Shown: positions 26,697 to 33,495 of the stretch, piece after piece
How the letters are laid out: every line of letters begins with the position of its first letter
How positions within the stretch are numbered: position 1 is the first letter of the stretch
The notes under the pieces: model-generated
What the model saw: only the letters and a program-made list of their open reading frames with translations
What the model was told of the DNA's origin: nothing
The model's database searches: none
NCBI GenBank assembly: GCA_020435415.1
Contig: JAGQZQ010000031.1
Location: 1 to 33,548 of the forward strand
DNA length: 33,548 bases
Direction of reading: 5' to 3'
Source of the DNA: Flavobacteriales bacterium
Lineage (GTDB): Bacteria > Bacteroidota > Bacteroidia > JACJYZ01
Translations under genes and position numbers: made by a program

Positions 26697-27713
26697 CTAC
26701 CAGATCCCGGGAAAGAATTTCCACTTTACCTTTTCGCAATAGGCCTGGTATTCCGGGTCTGACATCAGATGTTTTTCTTCTGTCAGGCCACGCAGGATGT
26801 AAATGGCGGTCCACATGGCCAGGAACAGGATCACAATGGGACGTTCCGGAACGGCGGGCAGGATCGTGCACCACCACATCAGGTTCTTCGCGGTATAATG
26901 GGGATGCCTGAGCCAGCGGTAAGGGCCGTTCGTGATGATCCCGCGATTCGTCAGGTTCGAACATTTTGTGCCCAGCACCCCCACACTCCAGAACATCAGT
27001 CCCATCAAAGCCAGCATCAGAATACGAACAATAAATGTGGTCACCTCATTCCCGAAGGAAGCGTTGATATTGATCTCAAAGCGGATGTGCCTCGAAATGA
27101 AATTGGAGAATGGCGGATAGCATGCCAGCGTCACCGCCCATCCGAACAAGCTCGGATCAACAGATTTTACTTTGTTGTTCAATGCCGGAGATTCCACGAT
27201 GTAGCCGAACAGGTAAATACCGGTCAGGGTCACGTAACATACCGACACCAGTAACGGAAACAGTTGTGTATTGAAATAGGAGATCGTTGCTGAGAACTGG
27301 TTGCTGTCTGCCAATAACTGAAGACTGTAATATTTCAGGTTGGCAAGATTCCGGTACGAGAAATTCATCATCACCGGAATGAAATAGAACTTCACCCAGA
27401 AAGCCAGGAATGCCACACGGTCTTCCGGATTGGCCTTTTCTTTTTTCCGTTTGATCAGTACACGGTAAAGGTGGCCAATGTAACGCCCCATCATCCACCC
27501 CTTGGTATCCTGTCCTTTCTGCAAACGAATTCGTGTGACATGAACGGCATATACCGAGTAAGCCGCAGCTAGCAGCAGCAGGCTGTATTGCAAACGGGTA
27601 TTCAGAAATGTATGGTAATACGGTATGGTGTTATAAACCAATATGGCAGTCCATACCATAGCAAGTTCTGCCAGATACCGGTGAAAAATCCGTTGCCCTG
27701 AGGGTAGGTTCAT
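26697..27713 (-). CDS. Membrane protein with C-terminal isoprenylcysteine/phospholipid methyltransferase-like domain
   Basis: A 338-residue polytopic membrane protein. The C-terminal part matches the ICMT/PEMT-type membrane methyltransferases: NGPYRWLRHPHYTAKNL (SAM-binding region), followed by a hydrophobic stretch, LTEEKHLMSDPEYQAYCEKVKW and a terminal FFPGIW. About six additional hydrophobic helices precede it, making it larger than the roughly 200-residue members. The substrate cannot be deduced; the family methylates lipids, steroid-like compounds or cysteine groups. It converges on the lipoprotein gene with nine bases between the stop codons. Confidence 0.8.
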   Translation of the reverse strand: MNLPSGQRIFHRYLAELAMVWTAILVYNTIPYYHTFLNTRLQYSLLLLAAAYSVYAVHVTRIRLQKGQDTKGWMMGRYIGHLYRVLIKRKKEKANPEDRVAFLAFWVKFYFIPVMMNFSYRNLANLKYYSLQLLADSNQFSATISYFNTQLFPLLVSVCYVTLTGIYLFGYIVESPALNNKVKSVDPSLFGWAVTLACYPPFSNFISRHIRFEININASFGNEVTTFIVRILMLALMGLMFWSVGVLGTKCSNLTNRGIITNGPYRWLRHPHYTAKNLMWWCTILPAVPERPIVILFLAMWTAIYILRGLTEEKHLMSDPEYQAYCEKVKWKFFPGIW

Positions 27714-27749
27714 GCAGGTAAAGTTACACGACCATTCGGAAGTTTCTAT

Positions 27750-28092
27750 GATCCCAGGTCATGCAATAGAAAAAAGCTATTGCATGACGCATAAGAAAAT
27801 CATAGGATACCGATTGTTTGGTTCGGAAGAAATTCTTGATTTTCTAATGCGGGATAACCCTCCCGCACGTGCGGGACATATAGTTCAGCGCGAAAAGCGC
27901 TTCCTAATGTATAATCTAGGATAATCCCAAACTATGCAATAGAAAATCTTCTACTGCATAGCGATTAAGAAAATCAACCTTTCCGGCCTATACTTCGTAC
28001 ATCCGAAAAGTGATTTTCTAAATCGGGATAACCCCAACTAAATACAGATAGTTCGGCTCGTTCCTCACCTCCTACTGCATAAGTTGGGGTAA
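27750..28092. repeat. Tandem pair of structured non-coding repeats
   Basis: This 431-base gap (27714-28144) between divergent genes holds two diverged copies of a unit of about 170 bases: 27750-27925 and 27923-28092. Shared blocks include TCCCA, ATGCAATAGAAAA, CTAnTGCAT, TAAGAAAATCA, TGATTTTCTAA, CGGGATAACCC, ATAGTTC and a closing GGnTAAT. Each copy opens with a hairpin: perfect 12 bp in copy 1 (27758-27769 with 27777-27788) and 10 of 11 bp in copy 2 (27932-27942 with 27951-27961). Each then has AAGAAAATCA pairing with TGATTTTCT. Copy 1 also has CCCGCACGTGCGGG and GCGC-GAAAA-GCGC hairpins. Copy 2 closes with ACCCCAACT against AGTTGGGGT. It could be a mobile hairpin element or a structured RNA. 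No protein-coding signal is seen. Confidence 0.75.
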
Positions 28093-28118
28093 TATGTTAA
28101 ACATATCCATACAACAAC

Positions 28119-28126
28119 TACCTTTG
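28119..28126 (+). promoter_or_regulatory. Bacteroidota -7 promoter box (TACCTTTG) for the two-component genes
   Basis: TACCTTTG matches TAnnTTTG exactly and lies 18 bases upstream of the response-regulator ATG. A canonical -33 box is not obvious at 17-23 bases. Confidence 0.55.
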
Positions 28127-28144: not shown

Positions 28145-28819
28145 ATGAAGATCCTGATCATTGAGGATGAACCAAAATTAGCCGCTTTCCTGCAACAGGG
28201 GCTGGAGGAAAACGACTTTGATACAGAAGTTGTTTACGATGGTTTGATGGGTCAGCGCATGGTCCTCCAGCATACTTTTGACATGGTGATCCTGGATGTG
28301 ATCATTCCTCACCTGAACGGATTGGAGTTATGCGCCATCATCAAAAAAGAAAAACCCCATTTGCCTGTTCTGATGCTCACCGCACTGGGTACCACGGATG
28401 ATAAGATCACAGGACTGGATGCTGGTGCGGATGACTACCTGGTAAAGCCATTTGAATTTCGTGAGTTACTTGCCAGGGTGCGTGCCCTGACACGCAGGAC
28501 GGGACCAGGCCAGGCGGCCACCAACCAATTGAAAGTGGCCGACCTCACCCTTGACCTGGATAAGAAGGTGGCCATACGGGGCGATAAAACCATTACCCTT
28601 ACCGCCAAGGAATTCGGGTTGTTGGAATACCTGATGCGTAACCGGGGCCGGGTGGTGTCACGAGTAGACATTGCCGAGAAAGTATGGGACATCACCTTTG
28701 ATACGGGCACCAATGTGGTGGATGTTTATGTGAATCTCCTTCGAAAGAAAATCGACAGGGACTTCCCGGAAAAGCTTATCGAAACCAGGGTGGGCATGGG
28801 ATATGTTCTAAAAGCATAG
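28145..28819 (+). CDS. OmpR-family response regulator
   Basis: A 224-residue two-component response regulator. The receiver domain (1-120) has the acidic pair E7/D8, the phosphorylated D51 (VILDVIIP), T79 and K101 (LVKPFEF). The C-terminal winged-helix domain (about 125-224) has LTAKEFGLLEYL, DVYVNLLRKKID and the closing GMGYVLKA wing. The sequence is of the CusR/RprY-like OmpR subgroup. It ends two bases before the histidine kinase gene, so the pair is cotranscribed. Ligand and regulon are not visible. Confidence 0.95.
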   Translation: MKILIIEDEPKLAAFLQQGLEENDFDTEVVYDGLMGQRMVLQHTFDMVILDVIIPHLNGLELCAIIKKEKPHLPVLMLTALGTTDDKITGLDAGADDYLVKPFEFRELLARVRALTRRTGPGQAATNQLKVADLTLDLDKKVAIRGDKTITLTAKEFGLLEYLMRNRGRVVSRVDIAEKVWDITFDTGTNVVDVYVNLLRKKIDRDFPEKLIETRVGMGYVLKA

Positions 28820-28821
28820 CC

Positions 28822-30189
28822 ATGCAGCTGCGCCAGCGACTTACCTACCTTTTCGTGATCATTGTGGCATTGGTGCTGTTGGTATTCTCCATTGCCGTTT
28901 ATACCCTTTCCGCGGATTACCGCCACGATGACTTTTACAACCGCCTGCAAAGCAAGGCCAGCAATACCGCCAAACTCCTGATAGAAGTGGAAGAGATCGA
29001 TGCCAATCTGCTTCGGAAGATGGAGAAGGACAACCCCGTAAGCCTGCCCAAAGAAGAAATCCTTATCTACAATTACAGGAACGAGCTGGTGTATTCAAGC
29101 AATGAAAAAAGCCAGATCCATATTAACACCGAATTGCTTGATAAGATCAGGCTGGAAGAAGAAGTTCAGTTTACACAGGAGAAATATGAAGTGCTGGGAT
29201 TTCTATACACCGGACAGTATGACCGGTTCGCCGTGATTGCTGCCGCTGAAGATATATACGGATTGCGAAAACTGGCCAATCTGCGCACCGTTATTTTCAT
29301 TGCTTTCGGTGTAAGCGTGGTGATCGTTTTCTTTTTAGGATGGGTCTTTGCCGGCAGGGCCTTGCGACCGATCTCCAGGGTGATCAGGCAGGTGGAAAAC
29401 ATCACCATCACCAGTCTGAATTTAAGGGTCGACGAAGGAAACGGTCAGGATGAGATTGCGAAGGTGGCCAGAACATTCAACGAAATGCTGGACAGGCTGG
29501 AAGCGGCTTTTAAAATGCAGAAGAATTTCATTGCCAATGCGTCGCATGAATTGAGGACACCGCTCACTGCCATCACCGGTCAGCTGGAGGTTTTGCTAAT
29601 GAAGGAACGTGATAATGAAACGTATCGCAAAACAGTCGAATCAGTTCTGGAAGATATCAAGGGACTGAATACCATCTCAAACCGCTTATTGCTTTTAGCG
29701 CAGGCGAGTACGGAGATTTCCCGTTCGGAGTTCAAGCCCATCCGCCTGGACGATATCATATGGCAGGTACGTTCTGAGTTAATAAAACGCAATCCCGGTT
29801 ATCAGATCGATATTTCGCTGGACAGTGGTATGGACAATGACGACCGGCTTACCGTTTCAGGGGTGGAGAACCTGATAAAAACGGTGGTGATGAATTTGAT
29901 TGAGAACGGCTGTAAGTACGGAGAAAGCGGGAAGGTAGAAGTACTGCTGGGTGAAAACAAAGGCATGATGGAGGTGCGTGTGATTGATAAGGGAATCGGA
30001 ATTGAGGCCGCTGACATTGATAGGATATTCGAACCTTTCCATCGTGGAAAAAACGTCATGGGCATTTCGGGACATGGTATCGGTTTGTCACTGGTGGCAC
30101 GTATTGTAGCACTTCACGGTGGGGAGATAAAAGTATATTCCAAGGTGGGCGAGGGTTCTACCTTTCTGTTGATGCTGCCTCTAGCATAA
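28822..30189 (+). CDS. Sensor histidine kinase paired with the OmpR regulator
   Basis: A 455-residue inner-membrane sensor kinase. It has membrane helices at about 8-30 and 152-178 with a periplasmic sensor region of about 120 residues between them. HAMP follows (RALRPISRVIRQVENI), then a HisKA dimerisation domain with the phosphorylated H242 in NASHELRTPLTAITGQL, then a HATPase domain with the N box (NLIENGCKYG), DKGIGI and GHGIGL. It starts two bases after the response regulator. All catalytic motifs are intact. The signal is unknown; the periplasmic region has no recognisable fold from the sequence alone. Confidence 0.95.
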   Translation: MQLRQRLTYLFVIIVALVLLVFSIAVYTLSADYRHDDFYNRLQSKASNTAKLLIEVEEIDANLLRKMEKDNPVSLPKEEILIYNYRNELVYSSNEKSQIHINTELLDKIRLEEEVQFTQEKYEVLGFLYTGQYDRFAVIAAAEDIYGLRKLANLRTVIFIAFGVSVVIVFFLGWVFAGRALRPISRVIRQVENITITSLNLRVDEGNGQDEIAKVARTFNEMLDRLEAAFKMQKNFIANASHELRTPLTAITGQLEVLLMKERDNETYRKTVESVLEDIKGLNTISNRLLLLAQASTEISRSEFKPIRLDDIIWQVRSELIKRNPGYQIDISLDSGMDNDDRLTVSGVENLIKTVVMNLIENGCKYGESGKVEVLLGENKGMMEVRVIDKGIGIEAADIDRIFEPFHRGKNVMGISGHGIGLSLVARIVALHGGEIKVYSKVGEGSTFLLMLPLA

Positions 30190-31433: not shown

Positions 31434-31633
31434 CCAGCCTGCCCCGCAATGGCCCAAGCGTCGGCTGGCAGGCCAGCCTACTATCACAATGGCTGGCGCT
31501 TCGGCTGGCAGGTTTTCACATCGTCAAATTTTCAAATTTTCAAATCACCACATCACCACATCACCACATCACCGCATCACCACATCATCACACCAGCCTG
31601 CTATCACAATGGCTGGCGCTTCGGCTGGCAGGT
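31434..31633. repeat. Three copies of a 41-base GGCTGG-containing repeat around a second octamer block
   Basis: A unit beginning CCAGCCTG and ending GGCTGGCAGG occurs at 31434-31472 (diverged), 31473-31513 and 31593-31633. The last two differ at one base of 41 and are exactly 120 bases apart. Each contains CCAGCC and GGCTGG 12 bases apart, able to form a hairpin. Between copies two and three lies a second ATCACCAC block (about 31543-31590). The region appears non-coding; short open frames here arise from the repeats. Confidence 0.8.
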
Positions 31634-31640
31634 CACCGCA

Positions 31641-31865
31641 TCAACCAATCACCTTAATAATATTCACAGGACACACTTCCGCGGCCTTATGCAGTTTTTC
31701 GGCCTCGTCATCTCCGGTGGTAACCTGGTAAATATTTTTTTTGGCCGTGCTGCCGATAAGCACGCTTTTGCCATCGGTTCGTGAAACACGCCACCGCTGT
31801 TTGTCTACCTCCACACAAGCATTGCATCCGATGCACTTATGCCGGTAATGGATGACCTTAATCAA
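31641..31865 (-). CDS. Small single-cluster ferredoxin
   Basis: A 74-residue ferredoxin. Cysteines C11, C14 and C17 (HKCIGCNAC) and a fourth at C65 followed by proline (AEVCPVNII) fit a single 3Fe-4S or 4Fe-4S cluster of the short type; the middle is replaced by a strand-rich segment instead of a second CxxCxxC cluster. The start is TTG at 31865, overlapping the 3' end of the U32 gene (its TAA stop lies at 31858-31860). It ends at the edge of the non-coding repeat region. The likely role is delivery of electrons to, or exchange with, the neighbouring U32 protein, but this is inferred from the overlap only. Confidence 0.85.
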   Translation of the reverse strand: MIKVIHYRHKCIGCNACVEVDKQRWRVSRTDGKSVLIGSTAKKNIYQVTTGDDEAEKLHKAAEVCPVNIIKVIG

Positions 31866-33210: not shown

Positions 33211-33495
33211 GTGAAGGAGGCATGTCAATGCCGGCAACCTGGCCCGTGTATTGGGAAAGGCATGCGTTTGGCCGGTATCACAAAACGCGCTACCTTACAT
33301 ACGCTGAGGCACGGTTATGCCACGCACTTGTTGGAAGCGGGAACGGATTTACGGTATATCCAGGAGTTGTCCGGGTATAAGAGCAGCAGGACTCCGGAGA
33401 TTTACACGTATGTAAGTACAAAGGAATGGGGTCGGATAAAGAATCCGTTTGACCACCTGAAACCGGATGAGAAACATGACGAACCGCCAACCTAA
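33211..33495 (+). pseudogene. C-terminal remnant of a tyrosine recombinase (phage-integrase family)
   Basis: The 94-residue frame matches only the catalytic tail of an integrase/Xer-like recombinase: the HxxR box ([19 protein letters not shown]), the LSGYKSS region where LGHKSS is typical, and the nucleophile Tyr in EIYTYVS, followed by a normal-looking ending (RIKNPFDHL). The core-binding domain and the first catalytic Arg are missing, and the sequence before GMRLAGIT does not resemble the family. It starts at a GTG that follows an in-frame stop. The lack of the N-terminal half shows a decayed element or a recombined fragment. No other mobile gene is seen before the window ends 50 bases later. 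Confidence 0.83.

Follow-up and report, generated by a model that had tools for sequence, protein, structure and literature searches.

A hairpin-rich miniature element with IS1380-type ends, probably a MITE, in a Flavobacteriales genome and in other Bacteroidota

Two copies of a hairpin-rich element of about 165 nt lie side by side upstream of a two-component operon in a Flavobacteriales bacterium (assembly GCA_020435415.1, contig JAGQZQ010000031.1). With a probability of roughly 0.88, a non-autonomous miniature transposon (MITE) with IS1380-type ends inserted here on two separate occasions; it is likely mobilized in trans by an IS1380 transposase, with generation of a 5-bp target duplication. 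The element carries no gene, and the enzyme that moves it is probably supplied by a larger transposon of the same cell. This reading is based on terminal inverted repeats (TIRs), 5-bp duplications, dispersal, identity with IS1380 repeats and compensatory pairing in three helical domains. Throughout the text, the window denotes the whole analysed stretch of 33,548 nt.

Results

The two copies occupy positions 27753-27920 and 27926-28088 of the window, where a preliminary description had already recognized two diverged hairpin-rich copies with paired blocks. They are bordered on the left by an isoprenylcysteine-methyltransferase-like gene (26697-27713, minus strand) and on the right by a response regulator/sensor kinase pair (28145-30189, plus strand), the start codon of the response regulator being about 50 nt downstream. 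Copy 1 and copy 2 share only 60% identity, whereas their identities to copies elsewhere in the same genome reach 92% and 97%, respectively (copy 2 to a copy on contig C32). The pair therefore results from separate insertions of two subfamilies, and tandem duplication was ruled out as its origin. The features of the region are as follows:

27748-27752, no strand: left flank of the pair, ATGAT, fitting the 5-bp target consensus NTNAN (from sequence)
27753-27920, plus: copy 1, subfamily 1, CCCAGG...CTAGG (covariance-model match 1-162, 136.3 bits, E 1.6e-30)
27753-27769, plus: left TIR of copy 1, differing from CCCARAYTATGCANTAG at 2 positions; its inner part doubles as the 5' arm of hairpin P1
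27758-27788, plus: hairpin P1 of copy 1, GTCATGCAATAG/CTATTGCATGAC (fold, covariation)
27788-27851, plus: hairpin P2 of copy 1, CGCATAAGAAAATCA/TGATTTTCTAATGCG, containing the conserved A.A mismatch
27854-27858, plus: hinge of copy 1, ATAAC, linking module A (CCC..GGG) to module B
27859-27920, plus: module B of copy 1, hairpin P3 and right terminal repeat
27921-27925, no strand: ATAAT, 5-nt spacer common to copy 1 (right) and copy 2 (left)
27926-28088, plus: copy 2, subfamily 2, CCCAAAC...AGTTGGG (covariance model, 169.1 bits, E 9.7e-39)
27926-27942, plus: left TIR of copy 2, matching the pattern at every position
27932-27961, plus: hairpin P1 of copy 2, CTATGCAATAG/CTACTGCATAG
27962-28025, plus: hairpin P2 of copy 2, CGATTAAGAAAATCA/TGATTTTCTAAATCG
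28028-28032, plus: hinge of copy 2, ATAAC
28033-28088, plus: module B of copy 2, hairpin P3, CCCAACT/AGTTGGG
28072-28088, minus: right TIR of copy 2, matching the pattern except at 1 position
28089-28093, no strand: right flank of the pair, GTAAT, fitting NTNAN (from sequence)

More tandem or nested element pairs were seen at L145 (G295:C68) and at L157/L159 (G611:C6:21814-22079).

Copies of the element start with CCCA, end with TGGG and carry TIRs of about 17 bp, CCCARAYTATGCANTAG, at both ends. A search with the terminal-repeat pattern returned 80 sites, 36 of them exact, compared to 4 in the control. Identical 5-mers flanked 14 of the 24 complete copies, where 1.9 were expected and none of 100,000 permutations did as well. 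The flanks follow the consensus NTNAN with T at position 2 in 44 of 48 and A at position 4 in all 48 cases. The GGnTAAT block that had been described as closing each copy is composite: with GG the right terminal repeat ends, and nTAAT is duplicated target. The same flank duplications were present at copies in foreign genomes (L081, L095, L098, L084, L099, L087, L097, L101, L089, L092 and L077, among others). Furthermore, minimal palindromes made of two TIRs over a short loop have duplications of their own, GTTAA in L065 and TTAAA in L133. An apparent empty site was found in G051, where the locus syntenic with L042 of G005 (same genus) lacks the element and has a single TTAAA; its left flank is diverged. 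Pattern matches in Nostoc and Saprospiraceae (L071, L074, L078) were dismissed as chance.

Each copy is built from two modules, CCC-P1-P2-GGG (A) and CCC-P3-GGG (B), separated by the 5-nt hinge. Of 47 copies, 42 have a hinge of the form [AG]TNAN and all 47 have T at its second position; the hinge corresponds in length and consensus to the target duplication. Moreover, module-B-like units occur alone elsewhere (L035, L036, L038), and the window pair is joined in the same manner (GG-ATAAT-CCC). Taken together, the hinge consensus, the lone B units and the join of the pair suggest that the element likely arose by fusion of two modules inserted side by side. In three genomes, a palindrome of 14-18 nt with differing sequence (ATCCCGTAGGTACGGGA, ATACCGAGGCTTCGGTA, ATACCGATAGCTATCGGTA) replaces the base of P2 just before the hinge (L011, L013, L022, L030 and L031 in G000; L043 in G010; L116 in G103).

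Single-strand folding of the window copies yielded z-scores of -7.3 (copy 1) and -7.0 (copy 2), and none of 200 shuffles folded as well. Among 47 copies from many genomes, in an alignment fitted to the covariance model, 93.6% of the cells pair and 31 of 39 base pairs show changes on both sides. Such both-sided changes occupy 257 cells versus 67 ± 6.5 in shuffles, in agreement with the compensatory changes first noticed between the window copies. Sliding the pairing partners reduced the paired fraction to at most 47%, and an unfitted MAFFT alignment of 18 copies gave the same picture (62 versus 24 ± 4). Compensating copies were also found in other genomes, which favours a real structure; their absence had been named in advance as the outcome that would speak against it. 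Two irregularities are retained in the 47 copies, an A.A mismatch in P2 (43 copies have A on one side of it and 42 on the other) and a T-rich internal loop (TTC/TY) in P3.

Judged by raw fold energy, 39 of the 47 copies fold better on the minus strand. Relative to dinucleotide shuffles, z-scores were equal on both strands (mean -6.5 on plus, -7.0 on minus), so that the raw bias reflects base composition. G.T combinations occupied 44 cells and A.C combinations 28 (2.5% versus 1.6%). Equal z-scores and scarce G.U pairs give no indication of a strand-specific RNA, a reading that was set aside. Pairing without strand bias suggests a structure at the DNA level. An Rfam search returned no family at gathering score but only chance-level matches, consistent with the initial impression that the blocks belong to no described family, and no promoter signal above chance was detected.

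The element is present about 30-40 times in its own genome. The covariance-model search proposed in the preliminary description was carried out and returned 41 matches there, at least 25 of them full length, and blast at the DNA level returned 52. Many of these copies are situated at contig ends, as expected since repeats break assemblies. Using a simple ORF-based reckoning, 48 intergenic copies were grouped by the orientation of the flanking genes relative to the element (++ 12, -- 11, +- 13, -+ 12), which revealed no preference for orientation or gene-pair type. Dispersal and random orientation make the link with the two-component operon incidental. An effect in cis on the two flanking genes is possible, and nothing in the analysis points to one.

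With the same model, carriers were detected in 15 of 295 genomes of the class, representing 13 of 156 genera, and in 4 of 396 genomes in a wider draw from the phylum, 1 of them outside the class. JADBXZ and SSA2 (CP058707) are two of the carriers. No copies were found on plasmids, nor on viral contigs by an exact-core pattern search. The three-hairpin shape has been kept across many families of Bacteroidota while its letters changed.

In the genome of the window, contig-end fragments display the terminal repeat followed by the N- and C-termini of an IS1380 transposase (NF033539, E 5e-20 and 2e-22); the IS is found in such fragments only and never whole. A second PF13701 match in this genome (C7, L069) contains an in-frame stop. 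Whole IS1380 elements of this species are expected to have CCCARATTATGCANTAG ends. In contrast, JADBXZ, a Bacteroidetes MAG among the carriers, contains an intact IS1380 element of 1401 bp between CCCAGATTATGCATTAGA and CCCAAATTATGCATTAGG with a TTCAA/TTCAA duplication and a transposase scoring 268 bits (cut-off 180). Many MITEs of this genome end exactly with CCCAAATTATGCATTAG, the same 17 bases as those of the intact IS1380.

PF13701 transposase genes were found in 3 of the 16 other carrier genomes, while the PF13701 search found no IS1380 gene in the remaining 13. Only in G295 among the three does the terminal repeat of the IS match the MITEs of the same genome; in G114 the IS1380 ends are CCCAAATTATGCAWTAG and the MITE ends CCCTAAACAGACAG, and they also differ in G137. 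An IS1380-type transposase and a matching repeat thus coexist in the window's genome and in G295, the gene being absent or the repeat different elsewhere. The terminal repeats of the G114, G256 and G028 lineages differ from the IS1380 ends known in this analysis, and matching IS1380 ends for G114 and G256 would be of the ACAGACAG type. G103 harbors dozens of near-identical 143-nt copies (L113-L132), which points to recent bursts. The search nevertheless found no IS1380 gene in this genome, as collapsed or unbinned IS contigs could explain. On sequence grounds, the IS1380 partner can be regarded as established only in the genome of the window and one named genome. A TIR-bounded palindromic element, ATTATGCAATAG...CCTATTGCATAATCTCGGATAAT, appears to lie inside the IS1380 transposase gene of G114 (L112, G114:C91, about 1408-1514), which would be a miniature element inserted in its own presumed mover.

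Discussion

According to the model that we favour, an IS1380-family transposase likely acts in trans on the CCCARAYTATGCANTAG ends: it would bind them, excise or copy the element, and integrate it at NTNAN while duplicating 5 bp. The element itself was likely born from two neighbouring hairpin units, each bounded by TIRs. The hinge GGG-NTNAN-CCC would then be a fossil of the duplicated target, and after this fusion the outer ends would have moved as one. The tandem pair in the window would represent the same event at the next level. The structure may be kept at the DNA level, as a hairpin, cruciform or palindromic transposase-site architecture, rather than as RNA; this uncertain step relies on the same pairing signal on both strands and on the rarity of G.U pairs.

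Of the possibilities raised in the preliminary description, a small RNA, a tandem leader or a mobile hairpin element, TIRs, duplications and dispersal select the last. A regulatory leader or attenuator of the two-component operon is hardly conceivable. Its distance of about 50 nt from the response-regulator start codon would suit this role, but the same element occurs in random orientation at dozens of unrelated places, which ruled this function out, and the response regulator is preceded by a single -7 box of Bacteroidota type (TACCTTTG, 28119-28126), which is outside the element. We also think it unlikely that the element is primarily a structured non-coding RNA (small RNA or leader) under selection for its RNA fold, with mobility as a coincidental trait. 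The strong covariation seen in every helix, the conserved A.A mismatch and TTC/TY loop and the spread over many families would fit such an RNA, and ERIC elements, which are also MITEs, act in mRNA (PMC2229807). These points are countered by folding without strand preference, few G.U pairs, indifference to the orientation of genes, and the lack of an Rfam match and of a promoter signal beyond chance. A doubtful but somewhat more serious alternative is that structure is not under selection and the compensatory changes arose by hairpin-templated mutation (quasi-palindrome correction) together with recombination among copies. Palindromes are known to be self-correcting, the 3' arm of P1 repeats the terminal repeat in inverted form, and lineages differ by joint changes of whole arms. 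However, the P2 mismatch and the P3 loop have been conserved instead of being corrected away, which argues against plain self-correction. Tentatively, the interior, with three hairpins, fixed mismatches and the NTNAN hinge, might even work as a nucleic-acid device whose selection is independent of the ends that bind the transposase, and which was kept while these ends were re-tuned to different transposases across Bacteroidota families. It could, for instance, provide a single-stranded or cruciform DNA shape read by the transposase or a host factor, or steer insertion beside existing copies.

The identity of the mover is a separate question. If another transposase or recombinase, such as a different DDE family or a tyrosine recombinase, were responsible, the likeness of the ends to IS1380 would be partial or secondary. 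The 13 carriers in which no IS1380 gene was found and the deviating terminal repeats of G114, G256 and G028 are compatible with this. On the other hand, in the window's genome and in JADBXZ the 17-bp repeats hardly differ from IS1380 ends and come with the same 5-bp NTNAN duplication, and a tyrosine recombinase would make no target duplications. We therefore consider a different mover quite improbable and retain the IS1380 transposase.

The element shows the hallmarks of a MITE, namely a length of about 165 nt, multiple copies, no transposase gene, TIRs, a target-site duplication and ends matching those of a transposase-bearing element. The MITE-like option of the preliminary description was borne out in this way, while its REP-like option was not. 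REP sequences of the REP/RAYT system are palindromes of 20-40 nt that bear a GTAG/CGTC tag and depend for movement on a Y1 transposase, which duplicates no target; the 5-bp duplications and the two-module build of about 165 nt set the element apart from them. Integron attC sites resemble it in being imperfect hairpins with conserved unpaired bases. They are cassette recombination sites and lack a target duplication, whereas the element has target duplications and terminal repeats, tandem copies 5 nt apart and no cassette gene, and no cassette arrays were seen. With the IS1380 family (ISEcp1 and relatives) it has in common the terminal repeat, in the window's genome and in JADBXZ, and the 5-bp duplication found at the intact JADBXZ IS; it differs in sharing the terminal repeats only and in having no transposase.

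The ERIC consensus of enterobacteria comprises 127 bp with TA termini. The 5-bp NTNAN duplications (TA in ERIC) and the length of about 165 nt exclude the element from this family. It further differs in its terminal repeats of about 17 bp (7 bp in ERIC), the two-module build with a hinge, the likely transposase partner and the phylum. ERIC/IRU/RU-1 elements are intergenic, gene-less, about 130-170 bp long, bounded by inverted repeats, associated with a target duplication, rich in long stem-loops and present in several enterobacteria (PMC2229807). Location, lack of genes, approximate length, inverted-repeat ends, target duplication and stem-loops are shared by our element. To our knowledge, Correia/NEMIS and RUP are unrelated to it in sequence and ends. 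They have TA at their termini in place of 5-bp flanks. Like these and similar MITEs, which are IS-derived (PMC2229807), it is non-autonomous and contains stem-loops. Within the same phylum, IS-parented MITEs are described in the consulted parts of two reports: MITECca01 of Cardinium with an IS982 parent, stated there not to be found in other sequenced Cardinium strains (PMC9769881), and BrickBuilt of Porphyromonas gingivalis with IS5-like ends (PMC4596501). Their ends are of IS982 and IS5 type, and those parts of the reports contain no account of a structure conserved across families. Our literature search, which did not reach most subscription journals and ISfinder, found no description of an IS1380-parented MITE from Bacteroidota.

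As a rule, bacterial MITEs are the debris of a single insertion sequence, of shallow age and bound to one lineage. In the present case, one architecture of two hairpin modules, a 5-nt hinge and fixed mismatches is maintained by compensatory change in no fewer than 13 genera of one class, although sequence and ends drift. With a likely transposase partner at hand, the question why MITEs such as ERIC keep conserved structures becomes testable, and the hinge offers a simple, checkable route by which small elements may fuse into larger ones.

Two further observations concern other parts of the window. Positions 33211-33495 (plus strand), at its end, encode a C-terminal piece of a tyrosine recombinase in an open frame of only 94 aa, with the integron integrase TIGR02249 as best NCBIfam match (68.6 bits, far under the cut-off of 265). 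The open frame at about 31449-31784 contains internal tandem repeats (HHHITTSPHHHI; YHNGWRFGWQV twice) and is probably a simple repeat region rather than a gene.
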